Source: Sedimentisphaerales bacterium
GTDB taxonomy: Bacteria > Planctomycetota > Phycisphaerae > Sedimentisphaerales > Anaerobacaceae
Assembly (NCBI GenBank): GCA_016932095.1
Contig: JAFGDN010000019.1
Coordinates: 1 to 64,000 of the forward strand
Direction: 5' to 3'
Length of the DNA: 64,000 nt
In this document: piece by piece, positions 22,439 through 41,148 of the stretch
Layout of the letters: every line of letters starts with the position of its first letter
How positions within the stretch are numbered: position 1 is the stretch's first letter
Notes under the pieces: generated by a model
The model's input: only the letters and a program-made list of their open reading frames with translations
Told to the model about the DNA's origin: nothing
Databases searched by the model: none
Program-made: the position numbers and the translations under genes

Positions 22439-22487
22439 TTTTGCCTTGAGAGAAACGGGGGAGGTTGGTAGAGTAAGTCAGAAGACA

Positions 22488-22536
22488 GAACGTCGAACAT
22501 TCAATATTGAACTTTGAACGTCGAACAAAGAATGCG
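22488..22536. repeat. Degenerate tandem heptamer array (7 units)
   Basis: Units in order: GAACGTC, GAACATT, CAATATT, GAACTTT, GAACGTC, GAACAAA, GAATGCG. The period is exactly 7 and the GAA at the unit start is nearly constant. It sits 32 bp before purD. Confidence 0.8.
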
Positions 22537-22568
22537 GATTGCAGAATGAAGAAAGGGATTTTTAACAA

Positions 22569-23846
22569 ATGAGAGTATTATTAGTAGGCAACGGCGGGCG
22601 GGAGCACGCGATTGCGTGGAAATTGAAGCAATCGAAGGAATTAACGAAATTATACATAGCGCCCGGTAACCCGGGAACAGCCCAATATGGGGAAAACGTC
22701 GCGATAAAGGCGGAGGATGTGAATGGATTAGTCAAATTCGCAAAGGAGAATAAAATCGGACTTGCGCTCATCGGGCCTGAAGACCCGCTGGCGGAAGGCG
22801 TAGTGGATATGCTCGAAGCGGAGGGGGTAAAGGCGTTCGGGCCGTCGAGGGCGGCGGCACAATTGGAGGCGGACAAGGCGTTTTCAAAGCAGATAATGCG
22901 GTCAAGCGCGGTATCAACGGCCGAGGGCAGGACGTTTACACGGTTCGCCGATGCCAAGGCGTATATCGCCAGCAGGGATGAGCCGGTGGTTGTCAAGGCG
23001 GCCGGCCTTGCAAAGGGTAAAGGGGTGATGGTGTGCAACGAGCCGTCAGACGGGATACTGGCAGCCGAGAAAATTATGGTCAACAAAATATTCGGCCCGG
23101 CGGGTGATAAAATCGTTGTTGAGGACAAGCTCATCGGAGAAGAGGCGTCGATTCTGGCTTTCGTCGATGGCAGAAGCATTTACGTGATGGAATCATCGCA
23201 GGACCATAAGCCCATAGGCGACGGCGATACCGGGCCAAACACGGGCGGTATGGGGGCATACAGCCCGGCGCCGGTCGTTACCGACGAAATGATGAGCCAG
23301 ATTGAACGCGAGATATTAGTGCCGGTCGTGGATTGTATGAACCGTAACGAAACGCCATACAAGGGCGTGCTCTATGCGGGGATTATGGTAACAGCGGGCG
23401 GGCCGAGGGTGCTGGAATTCAACGTCAGGTTCGGCGACCCGGAGACGCAGCCGATACTGATGCGGCTGAAGAGCGATTTACTGGAGGTGTGCTTGGCCAT
23501 CTGCGAGCAGAAACTCGAAGATATAACGCTTGAATGGGACGAACGTCCCGCGGTGTGCGTGGTTATGGCGTCGGGCGGCTACCCGGGCAATTATGAAAAA
23601 GGAAAGGTCATAACGGGAATTGAAAAGGCCGAAAAACTCGACAATGTTGTTGCGTTTCACGCCGGAACCGCGATGAAAGACGATAAACTGGTTACGGCAG
23701 GCGGACGAGTTCTTGGGGTTACAGCGCTTGGCGACACAATCGCGGCAGCCAGGGCGAGGGCATACGAGGCAGTTGATAAAATAAACTTCGAGGGCGCATA
23801 TTGCCGACGAGATATAGCGGACAAGGCGATAAAAAGCTCAAGATAA
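22569..23846 (+). CDS. purD: Phosphoribosylamine-glycine ligase
   Basis: 425 residues, usual length. ATP-grasp enzyme that joins glycine to phosphoribosylamine in purine synthesis. MRVLLVGNGGREHAIAWKL, IGPEDPLAEGVVDMLEA, KAAGLAKGKGVMV, TGGMGAYSPAP and VLEFNVRFGDPETQ are family signatures covering the N-, ATP-grasp and C-domains. AAAGGGA lies 8-9 nt before ATG. The next gene begins 18 bp after its stop, so purD probably heads the operon that goes on with the envelope-transport genes, an unusual pairing. Confidence 0.97.
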   Translation: MRVLLVGNGGREHAIAWKLKQSKELTKLYIAPGNPGTAQYGENVAIKAEDVNGLVKFAKENKIGLALIGPEDPLAEGVVDMLEAEGVKAFGPSRAAAQLEADKAFSKQIMRSSAVSTAEGRTFTRFADAKAYIASRDEPVVVKAAGLAKGKGVMVCNEPSDGILAAEKIMVNKIFGPAGDKIVVEDKLIGEEASILAFVDGRSIYVMESSQDHKPIGDGDTGPNTGGMGAYSPAPVVTDEMMSQIEREILVPVVDCMNRNETPYKGVLYAGIMVTAGGPRVLEFNVRFGDPETQPILMRLKSDLLEVCLAICEQKLEDITLEWDERPAVCVVMASGGYPGNYEKGKVITGIEKAEKLDNVVAFHAGTAMKDDKLVTAGGRVLGVTALGDTIAAARARAYEAVDKINFEGAYCRRDIADKAIKSSR

Positions 23847-23864: not shown

Positions 23865-26800
23865 ATGCCGTCGATTGTGAATAAGCCGGGTAAAAAGGGC
23901 AAAAGGAGGGCCGTCGGCTGGCTAGTGGAGTTTGCGTTCACGGTCGTTTTGATGTGGCTTGTGTTTGCTCTGGCCGGCAGGGTGATGCCCAGGATAGCGC
24001 TAAGGGAGATTTCCAAATTAACCAATACCAAAATCGACGCGGAAACCGTTGATTTCAGATTTGACGGGTCGGTTCTAATCAGGCATCTGGCGGTCCGCCC
24101 GCCGATTTCGGCGGAATTCGACAATTCGATTTTAAAGGCCAAGACGATGCGGATGCGTTTTCGGCTCGGCAGTTTGCTGCGATTCCGCCCCCGGGTTAAG
24201 GAGATATTCGTTGATGATTTTGTGCTGAGGGCACAGTTCGATTCCGACAAAGGTTTGTGGAACCTGTCGTCGCTCAAAATTCAGATGCTGAAAAACGGCG
24301 ACGCCCCTTTGCCTCTGGTCTGGCTCGAAAACGGGGATTTGGAATATAGCAAGGTTGTAAAAGGTCGAAGCAGGGTCATTGCCAGAACGCCGGTGTCCGT
24401 GGGTTTGCGGCCGGCAGAGAAAATAGTAGGCGGTTACAGTTTTGACGTAACAACTGCCGGCCGCCAGAGTTTTCAGAAAAGCGCGATATTCGGGACCTGG
24501 CAGCCGGGACGAATCGAGATGGCCGGAAGAATATCTTCCAGGGATTTACCCGGCTTCGAAAGACCCTGGACCGTCAAATCGCTCGAGGCGAAACTTGCAT
24601 ACGAGCCGAACAGTTCCTTTGAGCTTACCGCGAAAGTGAAGAATTTCAATTGCCCCCCCAGCGACCTGAGAGGTATTTTTGCTTTTGACACCAGGACGCT
24701 GGGCGGAAAAGCGCCGTTTATCGACGCCCTGCAGAATTTTTTCAGAAGATACGGCCCGGACGGGACGATTAACCTTGATTTTCAGGCGTCCGGCAATCTT
24801 CTGCAAATGGATAAAAGTAAAATAAACGGCGTTGCGACTATCGTGGACGTCAACGTTTGCGACCGCGATTTCGCATATGCCGTCGAACACATCAAAGGGC
24901 AGATAGACCTGACCGACAAAAGTGTAAAACTAAGGAATATGACCGGTCGTCACGGCGACGTGGTCCTCGCCCTGGGCGGCTGGGCGACCGACGAAGGGCA
25001 ATACTGGAAATATCATTTGCAAATCACCAGCGAAAATATGCTGCTGGATAACGACCTGTATAATGCCCTTAAAACGAATGAGAAAAAGTTCTGGTCTGCG
25101 TTTTCGCCCAGCGGGATTGTCGCGGTAAATTACTCAAACAGCCGGTTATCGCAGACGGATATTAAAAACGCGCTGGCCGTGCAGCTTGTTGATGTCAACG
25201 CCGTCTACGTCGGATTCAGCTACCCCTTGAGGAACACAAACGGATTGCTGTTTTTTAGCCCCGACGGTGTTGTTTTTTCCAATGTAATATCAGAATGGGA
25301 AAACCGCAGGATAACAATAAACGGTAAAGTAACACTTGCCGCGGACCGGCAGCCAGAATACGACTTCCTGGTAAACAGCGTTAATATACCCCTGGATTCG
25401 ACGCTGGAAACGGCGCTGCCTGCCGCGCAGAAGGAATTCTACAGGCAGTTTGAAATGACAGGCATCATAGACGCGAATATAAAAATAGTAAGCGCAGAAG
25501 ACCAAAATGGAATGGGTTCGTTTGCGGCGGACGTCTTCCCGCGGAAAAGCTCGATAAAGGCCAGGGTCCTGCCAATTGTCATCAGCGACGTTACCGGCAA
25601 AATCGCTCTCAATCCCGACGTGGTGGATATTGACGCGCTGGCTGGCTGGTACGGGGATGGTTCGGTTGACCTTTCAGGGCGGGTATGGCTGCGAGACGGC
25701 CGGACTAAACTTGGATATTGCCTTTCAATGAAAGCCGATAAGATTGAGCTGACCGAAGAGCTTGAAAAAAACCTGCCGGGCCAGTTGTCGGCGCTGCTGT
25801 CGCAGTTACATCTCCGAGGCCAGGTCAGTGTTACGGCCGACGTCAGTCAAAACGCCGTCGGCGACTGTGCTCCGAACCGGCTGATTATAGAATGCATCGA
25901 TAATAACATTGACTGTAATTTCCTGCCATATCCCCTGCGAGATATCTCAGGCAGAATCGCGATTACGGACTCGGGAATTGAAATAGATGAATTGTCCGCA
26001 AGGGCAGTGCACAGAATTTGGGGCGAGTCGATAGAGTCGTCAATGAAAATGTCCGGCAAAATTGAGCTAGGGCAGGCGGGGCCGGACGCCAACGAGACGA
26101 CAATTACCGGCGGAGAGATGGGCTTCTCGGGCCGCAACGTCCGGTTCAAGGGAAAGTCATTGGCGAGAGTTGAAACTATTATTGATTACGAAGCCCAGGC
26201 AAGCGCGTGGCTGTCTCGTTATTTCATTGCTGATTTCTACGACGGGAAAATGATTGGTAAGGTGCAGTTGAATAAATCCGGTCAGCGTAATCTGGATTAC
26301 CTTCTGGAAACCGCCGTCGCAGGCGCGGATTTGAAGAAGTTTCTCTCGGACAAGGAGGGCGAGAAAAAGCCCGATGAGCATTTCAGCACCGGTTTGATAA
26401 ACGGCTGGCTCAGCGTTGTCGGTTCCATCAGCGACGATAATATCCGGCTCGGGCGATGCCAGTTGAAGATAATCGATATGGAAGTCGGCAAGCTTTCGCC
26501 GCTGGCCAAACTATTGGCGGTATTGAATCTCACTGAGCCCGGCGATTACGCATTCGACCGGATGACGGTTGACGCGTATATACAGGATAACAGGATGTTT
26601 TTACGAAAGCTGGATTTGGCGGGCAAATCGCTGGCGTTTAACGGGTCCGGCTGGCTGGATTTGAGGAGCGAGGAAATCAATCTGACGCTGACGGCTCGAG
26701 GTCGAAGGTTGTCAACGGCAAGCCCCTCGATTTGGCAGTCGCTTACGGAAGGACTCGGCCGGGCCGTGATGCGGGTGGAGGTCAAAGGCAATATCCACGA

Positions 26801-26876
26801 CCCGCAGGTTTTTACAAAGCCCCTGCCTGTAATCAAAGAGACACTTGAAATTTTGGGCACGCCGAAAGATAATTAA
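23865..26876 (+). CDS. Large AsmA/YhdP-like inner-membrane-anchored protein
   Basis: 1003 residues. After a basic N-terminus one membrane segment (about residues 20-42) anchors it; the rest is periplasmic, rich in beta strands. The start of the soluble part (ISKLTNTKIDAETVDFRFDG then VRPPISAEFDN) and the C-terminal LSPLAKLLAVLNLTEPGDYAFDRM followed by LAGKSLAFNGSGWLDLRSEE match the AsmA-like family, whose members form long repeating-beta-groove bridges that carry phospholipid between the membranes. I infer the same role here. The genes downstream encode an RND pump, a LolA-like carrier and an outer-membrane barrel, which fits lipid or hydrophobic-molecule export. Confidence 0.8.
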   Translation: MPSIVNKPGKKGKRRAVGWLVEFAFTVVLMWLVFALAGRVMPRIALREISKLTNTKIDAETVDFRFDGSVLIRHLAVRPPISAEFDNSILKAKTMRMRFRLGSLLRFRPRVKEIFVDDFVLRAQFDSDKGLWNLSSLKIQMLKNGDAPLPLVWLENGDLEYSKVVKGRSRVIARTPVSVGLRPAEKIVGGYSFDVTTAGRQSFQKSAIFGTWQPGRIEMAGRISSRDLPGFERPWTVKSLEAKLAYEPNSSFELTAKVKNFNCPPSDLRGIFAFDTRTLGGKAPFIDALQNFFRRYGPDGTINLDFQASGNLLQMDKSKINGVATIVDVNVCDRDFAYAVEHIKGQIDLTDKSVKLRNMTGRHGDVVLALGGWATDEGQYWKYHLQITSENMLLDNDLYNALKTNEKKFWSAFSPSGIVAVNYSNSRLSQTDIKNALAVQLVDVNAVYVGFSYPLRNTNGLLFFSPDGVVFSNVISEWENRRITINGKVTLAADRQPEYDFLVNSVNIPLDSTLETALPAAQKEFYRQFEMTGIIDANIKIVSAEDQNGMGSFAADVFPRKSSIKARVLPIVISDVTGKIALNPDVVDIDALAGWYGDGSVDLSGRVWLRDGRTKLGYCLSMKADKIELTEELEKNLPGQLSALLSQLHLRGQVSVTADVSQNAVGDCAPNRLIIECIDNNIDCNFLPYPLRDISGRIAITDSGIEIDELSARAVHRIWGESIESSMKMSGKIELGQAGPDANETTITGGEMGFSGRNVRFKGKSLARVETIIDYEAQASAWLSRYFIADFYDGKMIGKVQLNKSGQRNLDYLLETAVAGADLKKFLSDKEGEKKPDEHFSTGLINGWLSVVGSISDDNIRLGRCQLKIIDMEVGKLSPLAKLLAVLNLTEPGDYAFDRMTVDAYIQDNRMFLRKLDLAGKSLAFNGSGWLDLRSEEINLTLTARGRRLSTASPSIWQSLTEGLGRAVMRVEVKGNIHDPQVFTKPLPVIKETLEILGTPKDN

Positions 26877-26950
26877 AGGAGCAAGATTTCAACGCAGGGG
26901 CTTACGGTGATACAAAAAACCTGTTTTGCGAGAACCGGAGGTTTATATAG

Positions 26951-29566
26951 ATGGATTTCAAACGGGCGACGGCTGATTACTCGGTGAAACATTATAAGCT
27001 TGTGGCGGCGGTAATGATGGTTTTTACGCTGGCGACGGCCTCGTTGATACCGCTTATAAAAGTCGATACAGACCCGGAGAATATGCTTTCACCCGACGAA
27101 TCCGTAAGGTTATTTCATAATCAGGCCAAAGCCGAATTTTCCCTGTATGACATCGTGGTCGTCGGAATCGTTAACAACAAAAATCCGGACGGGGTCTTCA
27201 ATCCTCAGTCGCTTTCGAGAATTTACGAGCTTACTGAGTTTGCGCGAACGCTGACCTGGTCGAGTGAGAAAGAAGAAAACAGGCAAATCGGCGTTGTCGG
27301 CGTCGATATACTCGCTCCATCGACGGTTGACCATATCGGCCAGGGAGGCCCCGGAGAGATAAAATTTGAATGGCTTATGACCAGGCCGCCGGACACGCGG
27401 GATGAGGCGATTGAGATACGCAATAAGGCGATGAGCAATCCGCTGCTGAAAGGGACGCTTGTCTCGGAAGACGGCAGGGCGGTCTGTCTGTATCTGCCGC
27501 TGACCGATAAAGACCTCAGCTACCGGATTTATACGCTGCTCCGCGATAAAATCGCCACATTCGGCGGCGATGAGCAGTATTACATTACGGGCCTTCCCGT
27601 CGCCGAAGATACGTTCGGCGTCGAAATGTTTATACAGATGGCCATATCGGCGCCTCTGGCGATGCTGGTTGTTTTCCTGCTTATGCTGTTTTTCTTCCGC
27701 AAGCTGCTGCTCGTCGTTTCGCCTATGATAATTGCGATTGTCTCGGTTATTTCAACTATGGGCCTGCTTATAGGTTTCGGCTTTCCTGTTCATATTATGA
27801 GCTCGATGATACCGATATTTCTTATGCCGATATCGGTTGTTGATTCGGTTCACATCCTTTCGGAATTTTTCGAATTATATACCAGAGAAAAAGGACGGGA
27901 CGGAACAATAAAGGAGGTTATGGGCCACCTGTTTACTCCTATGCTCTATACCTCACTAACAACAGCCGCCGGATTCGCGTCGCTTGCCCTGACGCCGATA
28001 CCGCCTGTTCAGGTTTTCGGAGTGTTCGTAGCCGTCGGTGTTATGATAGCGTGGGTGTTTACGGTAACATTCGTGCCGGCATACGTGATGCTGATAAGCG
28101 AAAAGTCGCTCGAAAACTTCGGCCAGGCCGCCGTGCACGTCGAAAAACAAAGCCGGCTTGCAAAAATACTGCGCACAACGGGACAATTCACTTATACCGG
28201 TGCGAAACCGATACTGGCTGTGGCGGCTTTAATAACGGCCGTCGCCGTTTACGGTATTACCCGAATACAGGTAAATGACAATCCCGTCAAATGGTTCTCC
28301 AAACGTCATCCCATTCGACAGGCAGATATCGAACTGAACAAACATTTCGGCGGCACATATATGGCTTATCTTGTTTTAGAGCAATCCCCTGAAAGCAAAA
28401 CTAACATAACGGATGAGTCCGAGGATGCCGAGAGCTTATTTACAAAACCCGAAATGCTCGAGTATGTATCGAAACTTCAGGACTATCTCAAACAATCGGG
28501 GCTTGTCGGCAAGAGCAATTCAGTTGCGGACGTGGTCAAGAAGGTGCATCAGGAGCTGATTGACGGCAAACCGGAAAACTATATCATCCCGAGAACCGCA
28601 CCTGCCGTGGCCCAGTGCCTGATGCAGTTTCAAAGCAGCCATAATCCCGATGACCTGTGGCACCTGGTTACTTATGACTATGACAAGGCCAATATCTGGC
28701 TGCAGCTCACCAGCGGCGATAACCAGGATATGGAAAAGGTTGTCAGGACAGTCGATACATTTTTCACCCAAAACAAGCCGCTTGTGCCCCTGACATACAA
28801 CTGGGCGGGTCTGACGTATATTAATACCGTCTGGCAGGATAAAATGGTGTTCGGAATGCTCCAGTCGTTTCTGGGCAGCTTCCTGATTGTCTTTATTATG
28901 ATGGCCGTCCTGTTCCGCTCGGCTCTGTGGGGCCTGATTTGTATGGTCCCGCTTACGCTCACTATTGTGCTGATTTACGGAGTAATAGGACTGGCGGGAA
29001 AGGACTATGATATGCCGGTAGCGGTGCTCAGCGCATTGACTCTGGGAATGGCTGTGGACTTCGCGATTCATTTTCTCGAACGTGCCCGGGTCAGTTGCGA
29101 CCGAACCGGCTCATGGCAGACCAGCGCCGGCGAAATGTTTGCCGAGCCGGCAAGGGCGATAACCAGAAACGTCTTGGTTATAGCCATCGGTTTTTTACCG
29201 TTACTGGCCGCCCCGCTTGTACCATACAAAACCGTGGGTGTATTTATGTGCGTGATTATGGCGCTGTCGGGGATTGTTACGCTGATAGTGCTGCCGGCCA
29301 TTATAAAACTTACTGAGAAAACGTTGTTTAAACCAAAGCAAACCGTAGTATCACCGGGCTGCAACTGCGGCTTTTGCCTCATTATTTCAGCGGCGACTGT
29401 CGTTCTCGTGGCGCTCAACCTGCATCAGTACTGGCATCTGGGGCTGACCCGGCTGACCTGGCTTAGTATAATAACGATACCTGTAATGGTTCTCGTTTGT
29501 GGCGTAATGTCGCGAAGGCAGGTGTGTAAAAACATAAGTAAGGAAGGAAAACGAGGTGTAAAATGA
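26951..29566 (+). CDS. RND-superfamily (MMPL/HpnN-like) exporter
   Basis: 871 residues, GGAGG ribosome site 9-10 nt before ATG. The topology is that of a small RND exporter: one segment at residues 18-40, a periplasmic domain, then a five-helix bundle starting PLAMLVVFLLMLFFFRKLLL, and the same plan repeated after about residue 400 (second bundle from FLIVFIMMAVLFRSALWG). The fold-typical acidic motifs MPISVVDSVHILSEFFE and LGMAVDFAIHFLERA are present, so it is likely proton-driven. Unusually, two more membrane segments follow, after a cysteine-rich GCNCGFC (about residues 800-850). Related proteins move hopanoids and other lipids. Overlaps the next gene by four bases. Confidence 0.88.
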   Translation: MDFKRATADYSVKHYKLVAAVMMVFTLATASLIPLIKVDTDPENMLSPDESVRLFHNQAKAEFSLYDIVVVGIVNNKNPDGVFNPQSLSRIYELTEFARTLTWSSEKEENRQIGVVGVDILAPSTVDHIGQGGPGEIKFEWLMTRPPDTRDEAIEIRNKAMSNPLLKGTLVSEDGRAVCLYLPLTDKDLSYRIYTLLRDKIATFGGDEQYYITGLPVAEDTFGVEMFIQMAISAPLAMLVVFLLMLFFFRKLLLVVSPMIIAIVSVISTMGLLIGFGFPVHIMSSMIPIFLMPISVVDSVHILSEFFELYTREKGRDGTIKEVMGHLFTPMLYTSLTTAAGFASLALTPIPPVQVFGVFVAVGVMIAWVFTVTFVPAYVMLISEKSLENFGQAAVHVEKQSRLAKILRTTGQFTYTGAKPILAVAALITAVAVYGITRIQVNDNPVKWFSKRHPIRQADIELNKHFGGTYMAYLVLEQSPESKTNITDESEDAESLFTKPEMLEYVSKLQDYLKQSGLVGKSNSVADVVKKVHQELIDGKPENYIIPRTAPAVAQCLMQFQSSHNPDDLWHLVTYDYDKANIWLQLTSGDNQDMEKVVRTVDTFFTQNKPLVPLTYNWAGLTYINTVWQDKMVFGMLQSFLGSFLIVFIMMAVLFRSALWGLICMVPLTLTIVLIYGVIGLAGKDYDMPVAVLSALTLGMAVDFAIHFLERARVSCDRTGSWQTSAGEMFAEPARAITRNVLVIAIGFLPLLAAPLVPYKTVGVFMCVIMALSGIVTLIVLPAIIKLTEKTLFKPKQTVVSPGCNCGFCLIISAATVVLVALNLHQYWHLGLTRLTWLSIITIPVMVLVCGVMSRRQVCKNISKEGKRGVK

Positions 29567-30372
29567 AACTTTTGACGGTCGTTACAATAATATTTATAAG
29601 TTCGTCGGCCCTCATTGCTGCTGATGACCCAAACACTCCGGAAAAGATCACCGACGTCAACATTATCGTTAGCAAGGCCAACATTATGGCCTATTATCAG
29701 GGCGACGACGGCAAGGCCAGGGTCAAAATGACGATAACCGACAGAAGGGGCCAGACAAGGAACCGTGAGTTCATTATTTTACGCAAAGACGTGGAGGACG
29801 GCGGCGACCAGAATTATTACGTTTATTTCCTCAAGCCGGCCGACGTCCGCGAAATGGTCTTTATAGTCCATAAACACGCAGATATAAACAGAGACGACGA
29901 CAGGTGGCTGTATCTGCCGGGCCTTGACCTCGTCAAGCGAATTGCCGCAGGTGACAAACGCACCAGCTTTGTCGGCTCGGACTTTCTGTATGAGGATGTT
30001 TCGGGACGAAATCTCGAAGAAGATACCCACGAGTTTATCGAGACAACCGAACAGTATTACGTAATAAAGAACATACCGAAAAAACCCGAAACCGTGGAGT
30101 TCGGCTATTTCACTGTTGCGATAGACCGCTGCAATTTTGTCCCGATGAAGATGGAATTTTACGACAGGAACAGCAAACTGTATCGCGTGATTGAATCCCA
30201 AAAAGTAGAGACGATTCAGGGCTTCCCAACGGTTGTCAAATCCCTTGTCTCGGATTTGAATACGGGTAGCAAAACGGAAATGGAATTCAGCGGCGTGCAG
30301 TATAACATCGGCCTCGGTGACGTATTCACAGAGAGATACCTCAGGAGGCCTCCTGATGAGGCGAGAAAATGA
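29563..30372 (+). CDS. Periplasmic outer-membrane lipoprotein-sorting (LolA-like) protein
   Basis: 269 residues, signal peptide MKLLTVVTIIFISSSALIA cleaved before ADD. The body (QGDDGKARVKMTITDRRGQ, DDRWLYLPGLDLVKRIAAGD, SFVGSDFLYEDVSGRNLEED) is that of the outer-membrane lipoprotein-sorting family related to LolA and to DUF1329, an open beta-barrel that shields lipid. Its ATG overlaps the RND stop and its own stop overlaps the barrel gene (ATGA at both ends), so the three proteins are made together. I infer a shuttle between the RND pump and the barrel protein. Confidence 0.88.
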   Translation: MKLLTVVTIIFISSSALIAADDPNTPEKITDVNIIVSKANIMAYYQGDDGKARVKMTITDRRGQTRNREFIILRKDVEDGGDQNYYVYFLKPADVREMVFIVHKHADINRDDDRWLYLPGLDLVKRIAAGDKRTSFVGSDFLYEDVSGRNLEEDTHEFIETTEQYYVIKNIPKKPETVEFGYFTVAIDRCNFVPMKMEFYDRNSKLYRVIESQKVETIQGFPTVVKSLVSDLNTGSKTEMEFSGVQYNIGLGDVFTERYLRRPPDEARK

Positions 30373-31631
30373 TTTTTCGTCGGATATTCGTATTTTTGCT
30401 GGCAATAATCCTATCCTCGCAGATTTTTGCGAAAGACGATTCGGACTCCCTGCTCGAGGATATTGATATTCACGGCTTTTACGAGGTCAGATCGGGATAT
30501 CGCACGCGAAAAGACCCGTATGAAAAAGATATGTCGGTTATGGAGCAGCGGCTCCAGCTTGACGTATCGTCGTATCAGGACTGGGGCGACTGGAAAGTCA
30601 AAGGTGATACAATAGGCGACCTGGTCGAAGAGCAGGGGGATTTCGATTTACGTGAGGCGTATGTATCGAGCAGGCCGTTCGATTTTATGGACGCCAAAAT
30701 AGGAAGACAAATCCTGACGTGGGGAACGGGCGATCTGATTTTTATAAACGACTTGTTTCCAAAGGACTGGGAATCATTCTTTATCGGCAGAGATACTGAA
30801 TATCTTAAAGCCCCTTCGGACGCTGCGAAAATCAGTATGTTCAGCGACTTCGCCAATCTCGATATTATCTATACACCCCAGTTCGACAGTGACCGGTATA
30901 TCGACGGCAGGCGCATAAGCTACTGGAATTCAAACCTGCAGAGATTGGCCGGCCGGGATGCTGTTGTGCACACAGACAAGCCCGACAAGTGGTTCAGGGA
31001 TGATGAAATCGCGGCTCGGATTTACAAGAATATCAATAATTACGAATACGCGCTCTACGCCTATCATGGTTTCTGGAAAAGCCCCGGCGGGCAAAATCCG
31101 ACCGTTGGCAAAGCGACTTTCCCTGACTTGAGCGTTTACGGTGCAAGCGTTCGAGGCAACATAGCCAAAGGAATCGGCAATATGGAATTCGGTTATTATC
31201 AGTCGGAAGACGACCAGAGCGGCAGGAACGGCAACATTAATAATTCCGAAATCAGGTTTCTTATCGGTTATACCCAAGAGATAGGCAAAGATTTTACCGC
31301 GGGTTTACAATATTTTATTGAGCGTATGATGGATTACGACGACTATAAAAACGGTTCGCCCTCAGGGCTTGACCGCGACAAAACCAGGCACCTGCTCACA
31401 ATGCGGCTGACAAAACTGCTTATGAACCAGAACCTGCGATGCTCACTGTTCACGTATTTTTCGCCATCGGACAAAGACGTCTATATGAGGCCGAACATCA
31501 ATTACAAGATAAGCGATAATTTAGCCGTTGAGGCCGGCGCGAATGTCTTTTTCGGCGATTATCCCGACACCTTCTTTGGTCAGTTCGAAAATAATTCAAA
31601 TATTTACACGGGTTTTCGTTACAGTTTTTAG
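30369..31631 (+). CDS. Outer-membrane beta-barrel protein (DUF1302-like)
   Basis: 420 residues, signal peptide MIFRRIFVFLLAIILSSQIFA. The mature part alternates polar and hydrophobic residues in strands, with IHGFYEVRSGYR and ANFGR-type stretches such as DAKIGRQILTWGTGDLIF, which resembles the DUF1302 barrel family. It ends YTGFRYSF, the terminal Phe being the BAM recognition signal. RND plus DUF1329/LolA-like plus DUF1302 is a recurrent gene trio in proteobacteria, and here AsmA-like is added. The cargo is not known. Confidence 0.82.
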   Translation: MIFRRIFVFLLAIILSSQIFAKDDSDSLLEDIDIHGFYEVRSGYRTRKDPYEKDMSVMEQRLQLDVSSYQDWGDWKVKGDTIGDLVEEQGDFDLREAYVSSRPFDFMDAKIGRQILTWGTGDLIFINDLFPKDWESFFIGRDTEYLKAPSDAAKISMFSDFANLDIIYTPQFDSDRYIDGRRISYWNSNLQRLAGRDAVVHTDKPDKWFRDDEIAARIYKNINNYEYALYAYHGFWKSPGGQNPTVGKATFPDLSVYGASVRGNIAKGIGNMEFGYYQSEDDQSGRNGNINNSEIRFLIGYTQEIGKDFTAGLQYFIERMMDYDDYKNGSPSGLDRDKTRHLLTMRLTKLLMNQNLRCSLFTYFSPSDKDVYMRPNINYKISDNLAVEAGANVFFGDYPDTFFGQFENNSNIYTGFRYSF

Positions 31632-31655: not shown

Positions 31656-32066
31656 ATGACACAGGATGAACAGTATCTCAATCTGCTTTCTACTTTTCAT
31701 TTCGTTTACGCAGGTATAAAAGCGTTGTTTTCGTGTGTTTTCCTGATACACGTGGCCATAGGCATCGCTATGCTTTGTGGCGCGATGGATGGTAACGACG
31801 CACCGCCGCGGTTTTTAGGATTATTGTTCGTTTTTATTGGTTCGGCCTTTATCATATTTGCGTGGATTATGGCCGCTTTAATCGTCGCTGCCGGCGCAAA
31901 TCTTAAGCGGCGCACCCGACGCACCTTTTGCATTGTCATAGCCGCTATCGAGTGCATATCTATGCCCTTGGGAACCGTCCTCGGCGTTTTTACTCTCATT
32001 GTCCTGCTGAAGGACTCGGTAAGAGTCCTCTTCGAGGCCCAAAAAGCAACTGGGCAGCATTCGTAA
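31656..32066 (+). CDS. Small polytopic membrane protein
   Basis: 136 residues, AAAGGA ribosome site 7-8 nt before ATG. Three membrane segments are visible (about residues 15-40, 48-75 and 85-120) with GANLKRRTRRTFC as the basic loop between the second and third. No family recognised. It follows the barrel gene by 24 bp and could be the last gene of that operon. Confidence 0.72.
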   Translation: MTQDEQYLNLLSTFHFVYAGIKALFSCVFLIHVAIGIAMLCGAMDGNDAPPRFLGLLFVFIGSAFIIFAWIMAALIVAAGANLKRRTRRTFCIVIAAIECISMPLGTVLGVFTLIVLLKDSVRVLFEAQKATGQHS

Positions 32067-32234: not shown

Positions 32235-34820
32235 ATGAAATTCGATAAGTTCACGTTGAAGACGCAGGAGGCGCTGGCGACGGCCCAGCAAACCGCGATG
32301 GCCAAATCGAATACCGTGCTTAGCCCTTTGCATTTGCTTAGCGCGATTGTCAGCGATGATGAGGGTATCGCACCCGAGATTCTCAAGAAAATCGGCGCCA
32401 ACGTTCCGCGTATCAGGGATATGACCGATAGCGAGCTTCGCCGTCTGCCGCAGGGACAGGTCAGCGGACAAATTATGCCCGACCCGGCATTGAATCAGAT
32501 TATCTTAGACGCCCAAAACCGGGCCGACGCGATGGGCGACGAATACCTCAGCGTCGAACATCTGCTGTTGTCGCTTGCGGTGCTATCGAGCGACGCTCGT
32601 GAGGTTTTGCGCCTCAATTCCGTAACGGCTGGCCAGATAGAAAAGGCGCTCAAGGATATTCGCGGCGGCGAAAAAATCACCGACCAAAGCCCGGAGGCGA
32701 AATATAAAGCGCTTGAGCGATATGGAATTGACCTGCTGGATATGGCTCGCAAAGGCAAGCTCGACCCCGTCATCGGCAGAGATGAGGAAATCCGACGATG
32801 TATGCAGGTGCTTAACAGGCGGACAAAGAATAATCCCGTTTTGATTGGCGAACCGGGCGTCGGCAAGACCGCGATTGTCGAGGGCCTTGCCCAGCGAATC
32901 GTCGCCGGCGACGTGCCGACCGGATTGAAAGATAAAAGGATTATCGCGCTCGATATGGGCTCGCTTATCGCGGGAACCAAATTCAGGGGCGAATTTGAGG
33001 AACGGCTCAAAGCCGTCCTGAAGGAGGTAATCGCCGCCCAGGGCGGGATTATCCTGTTCATAGACGAATTGCACACCGTCGTCGGCGCCGGTAAGGCCGA
33101 AGGCGCCGTTGACGCGGGCAACCTCCTTAAACCGTCCCTGGCGAGAGGCGAATTACGCTGCATAGGCGCAACGACCATCGACGAATATCGAAAACACGTT
33201 GAGAAAGACGCCGCCCTCGAAAGAAGGTTTCAGCCGATTTTGATAGACCCGCCAAGCGTCGAGGACACCATAACGATTTTGCGAGGGCTAAAGAACCGCT
33301 ATGATACCCATCACGGCGTGCGGATTACCGATTCGGCGCTCGTGGCCGCCGCGACGCTGTCAAACCGCTATATTTCGGACAGGTGGCTGCCCGATAAGGC
33401 CATCGACCTCATTGATGAGGCGGCCTCGAAACTGCGCATCGAGAATGATTCCCTGCCCGCCGAGCTGGATGATATTCGAAGGAAAATCATACAGTTGCAG
33501 GTCGAACGGGAGGCGTTGAAAAAGGAAACCGACGAGGCCAGTAAAGACCGGCTCAAAAAAGCGGAAAAACAGCTTGCCGAATTACAGGAGCAGGACAAAA
33601 AACTGACGGCGCAGTGGAACCGCGAAAAAGGAGATATAAATTACATCAAGGACCTGAAGCAGAAAATCGACCAGGCACAATTGCAATTCAATGAGGCCCA
33701 GCGCAAGGGCGACCTTGAACAGGCGGCCCGGCTGAAATACGAGACAATCACTAATCTTAAAAAGGAGCTTGCCGAAAAAGAGGCCCTGCTTGCCAAAAGC
33801 AACGGCGCGATGCTGCATAACGAAGTAACGGAAGAGCACGTCGCCGAAGTCGTCTCGAAATGGACGGGTATTCCCGTGGCGAGATTGCTTAGCGGGGAAC
33901 GCGACCGCCTGATGAAGATGGATGAGCACATCAGGAAGCGGGTCGTCGGCCAGGACGAGGCGGTCGGGGCGATTTGCAACGCCGTTCGGCGAAACAGGGC
34001 GGGACTCGGCGACCCGCACAGGCCAATCGGGGTGTTTTTATTCCTTGGGCCTACAGGCGTTGGTAAAACCGAGCTTTCAAAAGCGCTGGCTGACTTTCTG
34101 TTCAATGACCCGTCGGCAATGGTTCGAATTGATATGAGCGAATTTATGGAGCAGCATTCAGTTGCACGGCTCATTGGTGCGCCGCCAGGATACGTCGGCT
34201 ACGAGGAAGGCGGCCGACTGACTGAAGCCGTCAGGAGAAAACCTTATTCCGTCATTCTGCTCGATGAAATCGAAAAGGCACATCCCGACGTGTTTAACGT
34301 CTTGTTGCAGGTTTTTGACGACGCCCGTCTCACCGATGGTAAGGGTCGAACCGTCGATTTCAAGAACACCGTTATAATTATGACCAGCAACATCGCCAGC
34401 CAGCAGATTCAACAGCTTACCGAGGAAAAAGGCGAGGACTGGGAAATCGAATCACAGGTCAAGGATATGCTCAAACAGGTTTTCAAGCCGGAATTTTTGA
34501 ACCGAATAGACGAGACAATCGTTTTTCATACCCTTAAAAACGATGACCTCAAAAAAATCGTGGATATTCAACTACAATACCTTGCCCAGCGACTGCACGA
34601 ACGTAAGATTGAAGTCCAATATACCGACGCCGCAAAAGAGCTGATTATAGAGGAGGGTTACGACGCCTCTTTCGGCGCACGACCCCTCAAGCGGGTAATA
34701 CAGCAGCGACTCGAAAACCCGCTCGCTGCTGAGCTTCTGGCTGGCAAATTCGCCGACGGCGATAAAATCAAAATCGACGCTAAGCAGCATAAATTTACTT
34801 TCGAAAAAGCCCGGCCCTGA
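32235..34820 (+). CDS. clpB: ATP-dependent disaggregase ClpB
   Basis: 861 residues, normal length. N-domain (residues 1-145, [20 protein letters not shown]), first AAA+ module with Walker A GEPGVGKT near 206, the long coiled-coil M domain that distinguishes ClpB from ClpA/C (about 405-525, [20 protein letters not shown]), and second module with GPTGVGKT near 602. There is no ClpP-binding loop seen. It works with DnaK to rescue aggregated proteins. AAAGGAAG lies 8 nt before ATG. No CIRCE element or clear sigma32 promoter is seen; TTGCAC-16-TATTAT (32186-32213) is a weak candidate but would leave almost no leader. Confidence 0.97.
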
Positions 34821-40381: not shown

Positions 40382-40582
40382 ATGATAAAAGACAGGCAAA
40401 AACTGGAAGAGTTCGAACGCAGAATGCTTGCGACCGAAAACCTCACTCACGAGCAGGCGATGGCAATTTTTGATTCGTTGTTCGAAGAAGCAGTGTCGCT
40501 GGGCGTTATCAATGACGAAAACATTCTCGAAGGTATAGAAACCGACATTCGCGTAGCAAGGATTCTTAATCAGTTAAAGTAA
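40382..40582 (+). CDS. Small acidic protein upstream of a nucleotidyltransferase
   Basis: 66 residues, MIKDRQKLEEFERRMLATEN and following, helical and acidic, ending in TDIRVARILNQLK. Its TAA overlaps the ATG of the next gene by one base (TAATG). This repeats the layout at 8056-8271, although the two small proteins show no clear similarity. Possible antitoxin or adaptor; no named family. Confidence 0.7.
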   Translation: MIKDRQKLEEFERRMLATENLTHEQAMAIFDSLFEEAVSLGVINDENILEGIETDIRVARILNQLK

Positions 40583-41148
40583 TGGTCGAGCAAATTCTAA
40601 AACGAATTGCGAAGGTTCTTGACGACTGCAATGTTCCTTATATGGTCATCGGCGGTCAGGCCGCGCTTATATACGGGCTGGTCAGGAACACCCGCGATAT
40701 TGATATTACGCTGGGTGTTGGAACTGAGAAAACAGCCGATATGCTGAGTATATGTGAGAAACTAGGATTGAAGGTTTTATCTGAAAGCCCCCTTAAGTTC
40801 GCACAAGATACACTGGTGCTGCCCGTAGAAGACCCGAGGGCGAGGATACGTATCGATTTTATGTTTTCATTCTCGCCATACGAGAAAACGGCCCTTAAAC
40901 GTGCGGAGCCGGCTAAGACAGGTGATTATCCTGTAAGATTCGCGTCACGGGAAGACCTTATCATTCATAAAATAGTCGCTGGCAGAGCAGTGGATATGGA
41001 GGATGTTAAGGGTATTCTAATAAAATGCGGGAAGTCGTTTGATGTTAAATATATTCGTCATTGGCTCGACGAATTCGCAAAAATGCCTGAATGTGAAAAT
41101 TTGACAGGGCGTTTTGAGGAACTATTAAAAAACGTCGGGCATAAATGA
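40582..41148 (+). CDS. Nucleotidyltransferase-fold protein (DUF6036/AbiEii-like)
   Basis: 188 residues. VPYMVIGGQAALIYG and TRDIDITLGVG give the G-G and D-x-D elements, and FASREDLIIHKIVAGRAVDM-like sequence in the second half is typical of the AbiEii/DUF6036 group, which transfers nucleotides or acts in toxin-antitoxin modules. It resembles the protein at 7571-8059 in order of motifs. It lies between two arginine-pathway genes, 16 bp before argJ. Confidence 0.82.
   Translation: MVEQILKRIAKVLDDCNVPYMVIGGQAALIYGLVRNTRDIDITLGVGTEKTADMLSICEKLGLKVLSESPLKFAQDTLVLPVEDPRARIRIDFMFSFSPYEKTALKRAEPAKTGDYPVRFASREDLIIHKIVAGRAVDMEDVKGILIKCGKSFDVKYIRHWLDEFAKMPECENLTGRFEELLKNVGHK

Follow-up and report, generated by a model that had tools for sequence, protein, structure and literature searches.

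In the 64,000-nucleotide stretch of the Sedimentisphaerales bacterium contig JAFGDN010000019.1 analysed here (the window, part of a 115,953-base contig of the draft genome G000), consecutive genes for an AsmA-like envelope protein, an RND pump, a LolA-like periplasmic carrier and a DUF1302-like outer-membrane barrel appear to fall into two abutting units. The last three genes (the trio) are, on balance, probably a proton-driven exporter of small hydrophobic molecules that usually operates within a reactive-sulfur or thiol response. The gene context of the family points to sulfur and thiol chemistry, a lipid cargo is unproven, and the cargo appears less certain for the window copy than for the family. 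All genes of the locus, from purD through clpB, lie on the plus strand:

22569-23846, plus strand: purD (GARS; Pfam GARS_A/N/C), not part of the export unit
23865-26876, plus strand: AsmA/YhdP-like envelope protein (Pfam YhdP, 52.4 bits)
26951-29566, plus strand: RND (MMPL/HAE3-like) inner-membrane pump, 12-helix core plus tail
29345-29563, plus strand: Cys-rich C-terminal tail of the RND, residues 799-871 (C804, C806, C809, two helices, C850, C859)
29563-30372, plus strand: LolA-like/DUF1329 carrier of the periplasm, with a signal peptide; overlaps the RND gene by 4 bp
30369-31631, plus strand: DUF1302-like outer-membrane barrel with C-terminal RYSF, 4-bp overlap with the LolA-like gene
31656-32066, plus strand: 136-aa multi-helix membrane protein, 24 bp 3' of the barrel gene, membership of the export unit uncertain
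32235-34820, plus strand: clpB, right boundary of a variable slot, conserved within the genus

The four-gene description given by an earlier reading of the bare letters of this DNA (hereafter the sequence-only reading) was confirmed in its open reading frames, in the ATGA overlaps at both the RND/LolA-like and the LolA-like/barrel junctions and in the terminal Phe of the barrel. The AsmA-like gene starts 18 bp after the end of purD and is separated from the RND gene by 74 bp. A sigma-70-like match (10/12) at 26845-26873 is weak, as the region holds 21 such matches against 11.0 expected.

The proposal of the same reading that the RND, the LolA-like protein and the barrel form a trans-envelope unit held up in a wider survey. 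We scanned GTDB genomes with an RND profile and took the best-scoring 80 loci, which are not a random sample, together with 20 loci from relatives. Of the resulting 100 loci, 76 have the complete trio, 11 the RND and LolA-like genes, 6 the RND and barrel genes and 7 the RND gene by itself; many of these partial sets lie at contig ends. The listed loci come from Planctomycetota, Omnitrophota, Auribacterota, Hydrogenedentota, Desulfobacterales, Alpha- and Gammaproteobacteria, Bdellovibrionales, Bacteroidota and others. In a Rhodospirillales metagenome-assembled genome (L157:9992-13213) the RND and LolA-like domains are naturally fused in one 1,073-aa frame that matches both MMPL and LolA_like. 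The barrel is strongly conserved, with 54-75% identity in 14 relatives, and patchily distributed across the phylum (12/294 genomes). These comparative data support the trio as a real, widespread and self-contained unit with a putative export function.

The RND scores 116.3 bits against Pfam MMPL (cut-off 20.5) and 161.5 bits against the HAE3 subfamily model TIGR00921, under its cut-off of 351.9. Its AlphaFold2 model (mean pLDDT 84.7) shows a 12-helix core and two periplasmic domains, and the nearest solved folds in a Foldseek search are MmpL4/5, NPC1/NPC1L1, MmpL3, Patched and Dispatched; most of these proteins move hydrophobic cargo. Structure alignments covered the window protein plus 40 of 74 RNDs, and the window protein plus 58 of 62 barrels. 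D298 and D703, which we take to be the acidic residues of transmembrane helices 4 and 10 that serve proton coupling in the RND family, are invariant in 41/41 RND sequences. Most relatives carry about 85 aa after residue 480 (around 487) that are missing from the window RND. The LolA-like protein scores 177.5 bits against PF17131 and 33.2 bits against DUF1329 (cut-off 23.1), with PDB relatives by profile in 9tp6, 4z48, 3bk5 and 3buu; LolA folds carry hydrophobic cargo. The barrel scores 17.8 bits against DUF1302, under the cut-off of 23.2, and has no PDB relatives found by sequence. Its AlphaFold2 model is of outer-membrane type (mean pLDDT 94.3, 18 main strands by manual count) and resembles porins and the AlgE exporter in Foldseek, with a TM-score by query of up to 0.57. 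A FadL-type lipid-uptake barrel was rejected, as the 50 listed Foldseek matches contain porins and AlgE and no FadL.

The two extra C-terminal membrane segments and the GCNCGFC motif that the sequence-only reading had pointed out in the RND are indeed present, the segments appearing in the AlphaFold2 model as helices 806-830 and 834-854, of low confidence. The motif is a conserved feature of the clade, a strict CxCxxC being found in 37/40 aligned tails, and 39/40 also keep the last pair of cysteines, where the second helix ends. The tail occurs in loci of Planctomycetota, Omnitrophota, Auribacterota, Hydrogenedentota and one Deltaproteobacterium, and is absent from the Alpha- and Gammaproteobacterial loci sampled and from G032 and G036. 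As both termini of a 14-helix protein would lie in the cytosol, all five tail cysteines would be placed at the cytosolic face, where the tail is predicted to form a thiol or metal site. Homology of the tail to the YgaP-like domain was rejected (hhalign probability 18.5).

The association of the trio with sulfur and thiol genes is firm at the level of the family. After removal of L107, L112, L114 and L182, which repeat L033, L047, L045 and L031, 96 non-redundant loci remained. Clustered neighbours received Pfam names including the YgaP-like transmembrane domain, ArsR, DUF302, a CoA-disulfide-reductase-like flavoprotein with rhodanese, thioredoxin and 1-Cys peroxiredoxin; in NCBIfam the scores for CoA-disulfide reductase are near its cut-offs and under them. 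We then built rough hidden Markov models (HMMs) of the neighbour families from mechanical calls of open reading frames, with 5-8 members each. Within 2.5 kb of the trio these found YgaP-like genes in 54 loci, a Cys-bearing ArsR in 42, DUF302 in 16, CoA-disulfide reductase-like genes in 9 and thioredoxin in 8, mostly on the strand of the trio, and 76/96 loci had one or more of the first four families. Control DNA totalling 975 kb, made up of purD loci and the parts of the trio loci more than 2.5 kb away from the trio, gave 0, 3, 0, 4 and 3 matches, respectively. The 63 fully flanked loci gave 39, 27, 9, 7 and 7, and 51 of them had one or more of the same four families. An SQR-like (sulfide:quinone oxidoreductase-like) flavoprotein lies near the trio in 6/96 loci, with one far match; the copy in L156 reaches 597 bits against an SQR III cut-off of 525, and the other four tested, at about 97-117 bits, are relatives only. 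Thirteen aligned neighbour ArsRs share one invariant Cys (C86) and are most like PagR, NolR, BigR, HlyU and YgaV.

Since the neighbour HMMs were trained on the neighbours themselves, whole-genome Pfam searches of G000 and 40 relatives served as an independent check. Thirteen YgaP-like matches (PF11127) exceeded the cut-off in these 41 genomes, 6 of them at the trio just 3' of the RND gene and within the trio (G005, G014, G017, G019, G020, G038). DUF302 (PF03625) was found in 12 copies, 8 of them just upstream of the RND gene (G005, G008, G016, G023, G032, G036, G037, G040). Genomes of about 3 Mb hold so few YgaP-like and DUF302 copies that almost none would be expected at the trio by chance. 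Five of the six barrel-bearing genomes with a YgaP-like match have that match within about 4.5 kb of the barrel, its position in the sixth (G322) being unlisted. A published account describes RND pumps close to sulfane-sulfur ArsR regulators; the excerpts seen of it do not name the trio (PMC12423496). Our literature searches, judged mostly by titles and abstract openings, found no description of an RND-LolA-barrel sulfur system.

On the molecular level, the RND would draw a small hydrophobic compound out of the inner membrane at the expense of the proton gradient (we infer both the direction and the energy source), the LolA-like protein would ferry it across the periplasm, and the barrel would release it outside the cell. 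The family unit would usually act in a reactive-sulfur/thiol response with the Cys-bearing ArsR as its regulator, and with YgaP-like, DUF302 and CoA-disulfide reductase/rhodanese proteins, sometimes also an SQR-like protein, as partners. In view of these partners, the likeliest cargo of the family would be zero-valent sulfur in hydrophobic form (S8, polysulfanes) or else a hydrophobic toxicant that reacts with thiols. A more specific version, which we consider improbable, is that the trio would form an envelope-spanning route for S8 and polysulfanes arising from sulfide oxidation, and that the Cys tail of planctomycetes and Omnitrophota would be a persulfide or metal relay at the cytosolic face that loads or gates the pump.

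A number of observations weigh against a place for the trio in sulfur chemistry. No sulfur marker stands beside the window's own trio, and the G000 genome contains no YgaP-like, DUF302 or SQR III match; SQR III is without an over-cut-off match in all 41 genomes. In an RND tree of 93 sequences the window copy forms a subclade with those of G022 and G016 (support 1.0) that has no sulfur neighbours at the trio, the G022 copy adjoining glucose-6-phosphate dehydrogenase. The trios of two relatives adjoin metal or metalloid exporters: the G016 copy of the subclade stands next to the arsenite exporter ACR3 and MntP, and the G013 copy, outside the subclade and also without markers, next to an SO_0444 Cu/Zn exporter and a ferredoxin. 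All four markers are missing from 20/96 loci, some of which are ended by contig edges, and the control densities above rest on HMMs trained on the neighbours. YgaP-like genes are common in the phylum anyway (133/294 genomes), and DUF302 occurs in 31/294, sharing only G322 with the 12 barrel-bearing genomes; phylum-wide co-occurrence of the trio with YgaP-like or DUF302 by presence and absence was uninformative in these 294 genomes. The family loci do resemble YgaVP-type and SqrR/BigR operons in combining an ArsR, a YgaP-like membrane protein and rhodanese or SQR genes. They differ from SqrR/BigR operons in that the 13 neighbour ArsRs lack a conserved Cys at the SqrR/BigR alpha-2 position, and the window copy lacks such neighbours altogether; the one ArsR tested is over the cut-off for the general ArsR/SmtB model and under that for BigR. 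Finally, the excerpts seen of the reports on related systems describe responses to monoterpenes, alkanes, benzene or Tween 20, not to sulfur (PMC6394551, PMC6304351, PMC13101534, PMC10866462).

These published systems lend weight to a different explanation, in which the trio would be a relative of AmeABCD and a generic exporter of hydrophobic organics (hydrocarbons, terpenes, fatty acids, lipids), with the sulfur genes co-located through a shared membrane or redox stress; we regard this as possible, if rather unlikely. AmeABCD of Castellaniella defragrans, which consists of DUF1302, DUF1329, YCF48 and HAE3 RND proteins and protects against monoterpenes, is like the trio in that an RND, a LolA-superfamily carrier and a DUF1302-type outer-membrane protein are encoded together and proposed to form an exporter (PMC6394551). 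The trio differs in lacking a YCF48 (AmeC) partner, PSII_BNR (PF14870) being unmatched in G000 and matched in 5/41 genomes, never at the trio, and in a barrel that falls short of the DUF1302 cut-off (17.8 vs 23.2), with a carrier that does pass for DUF1329. AmeABCD also sits in a monoterpene island, unlike the trio loci. In Thalassolituus oleivorans, TOL_3187, an RND (MMPL) protein with LolA-like domains that has an adjacent porin-type gene (TOL_3188) and is the published precedent for the L157 fusion, is up 42-fold on n-C28; its authors proposed porin delivery and alkane passage, and no sulfur context was seen in the passages of that report (PMC6304351). A benzene degrader shows high expression of a gene cluster with DUF1329, YCF48 and MMPL (PMC13101534). 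The Pseudomonas putida genes PP_0765/0766 and PP_2018/2019 are similar in that a DUF1302 barrel and a DUF1329 carrier are a predicted pair, linked by fitness to a periplasmic protein and an efflux transporter, and different in being four components encoded in two places with Tween-20 phenotypes (PMC10866462). Against a generic exporter of organics stand the markers specific to sulfur and thiol chemistry (YgaP-like, CoA-disulfide reductase with rhodanese, SQR), the position of the YgaP-like gene within the trio just 3' of the RND in six relatives, and a neighbourhood in which no hydrocarbon-degradation family is among the 25 commonest of 137 families (Pfam survey of 111 of the 134 unlabelled operon proteins).

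The component set is thus already known from AmeABCD and the DUF1302/DUF1329 pairs. As far as our literature searches show, which saw the published work in part, what is new is the setting among sulfur genes, the placement of a YgaP-like gene within the trio in some relatives, and the conservation of the Cys tail. With SQR, YgaP-like, DUF302 and CoA-disulfide reductase genes as its companions across phyla, the trio is a concrete candidate ready for knock-out, and this company makes the export of zero-valent sulfur a directly testable question; the carriers include genera with cultured strains, by their locus titles Marinobacter, Hahella, Marisediminitalea and Bowmanella.

Efflux of a metal or metalloid (arsenic, copper, zinc), with the ArsR as regulator and the Cys tail as metal sensor or loader, seems to us quite remote. 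It would explain the ACR3 (372 bits, cut-off 282.8) and MntP upstream in L031 and the SO_0444 Cu/Zn exporter in L036, a CxCxxC...C...C tail would suit metal binding, and a neighbour ArsR matches the general metalloregulator model. However, each of the metal exporters turned up in a single locus, the hydrophobic cargo of LolA folds would not fit, and the window RND (P0002) matches MMPL/Patched with no ACR_tran match at E <= 1, unlike heavy-metal RND pumps.

That the AsmA bridge and the RND trio make up one lipid-export system, as the sequence-only reading had put it, has almost no likelihood left: the two share a strand, a gap of 74 bp and an envelope location, but are adjacent in none of the 20 loci that represent the 18 relatives having a close RND (some on short contigs); the AsmA-like gene is kept with purD in 29 of 34 genomes, and three congeners hold a different cassette in the slot. 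The neighbourhood survey that this reading had suggested as a check for co-occurring AsmA-like genes found the two non-adjacent in relatives, the very outcome that the reading had named as refuting it, and in the single-contig genomes G013 and G019 they lie more than 1 Mb apart. An HMM of the AsmA family had no match in the 100 trio loci at E <= 1e-5, a looser search gave one weak match of 18 bits several genes from the trio in L150, and 0/10 large same-strand neighbours of the trio scanned were AsmA-like. On this evidence an AsmA-trio operon was rejected, which removes a false lead by placing AsmA outside the trio system.

The AsmA-like protein itself has an N-terminal hydrophobic segment, a YhdP match above the Pfam cut-off of 46 and a DUF748 match below cut-off, and is without PDB relatives. 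A match to it was found in 37/41 genomes and purD in 36/41. The two are adjacent in 29 of the 34 genomes having both, by coordinates or, for G027 and G038, from the slot layout, and are apart in G016, G028, G032, G033 and G036; purD was not found in three AsmA-bearing genomes (G004, G008, G037). The pair purD-AsmA appears to be old, and two seemingly unrelated units abut in the window, with the AsmA-like gene a probable bystander to the trio. The sequence-only reading had also started the operon with purD; purD does directly precede the AsmA-like gene, as its old partner, and is not part of the export unit.

In the congeners G001-G003 the order is purD, AsmA (divided between two contigs in G001), a GntR regulator, an ABC ATPase, two more genes and clpB, the families being taken from L089. 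In the window, the stretch between AsmA and clpB is taken up by the trio and the 136-aa gene rather than by this GntR/ABC cassette, so the trio is a lineage-specific occupant of a variable slot. Recent transfer from a sampled relative is unsupported: the window RND is 76/71% identical to those of its tree neighbours G016/G022, close to the 77/75% of purD in the same genomes, and the GC content is unremarkable. Given this, the slot difference could reflect an old acquisition, a relocation or a loss in the congeners. The 136-aa protein has no Pfam or NCBIfam match, and its gene was not found beside the trio in 20 relative loci or in the congener slot.

Individual loci add some detail. The former signal peptide of the carrier in the L157 fusion has apparently become a linking helix. 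G016 carries two complete trios (L031, L050) that are about 50% identical, one with DUF302 upstream and the other beside the ACR3 arsenite efflux gene and MntP. Gene order is variable, the barrel gene standing 5' of the RND in a Saprospiraceae metagenome-assembled genome (L162:4869-6188), and tandem LolA-like genes follow the RND in L046:16972-18722, the second ended by the contig edge. Between the LolA-like gene and the barrel, L038:13074-13667 and L044:3231-3824 hold a gene of about 197 aa similar to the window ORF 40582-41148, L048:12405-13058 a 1-Cys peroxiredoxin gene and L049:7697-8350 a gene of the same length as that peroxiredoxin; the RNDs of the L048 and L049 genomes are without the Cys tail. 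Two Omnitrophota loci (L132, L143) have flavodiiron-type genes (ODP lactamase plus flavodoxin) in the same stretch as the trio, L143 with a rubrerythrin gene as well, pointing to redox stress. In the window, a short repeated motif, gaacgtcgaac, lies within 22480-22540, 5' of purD.

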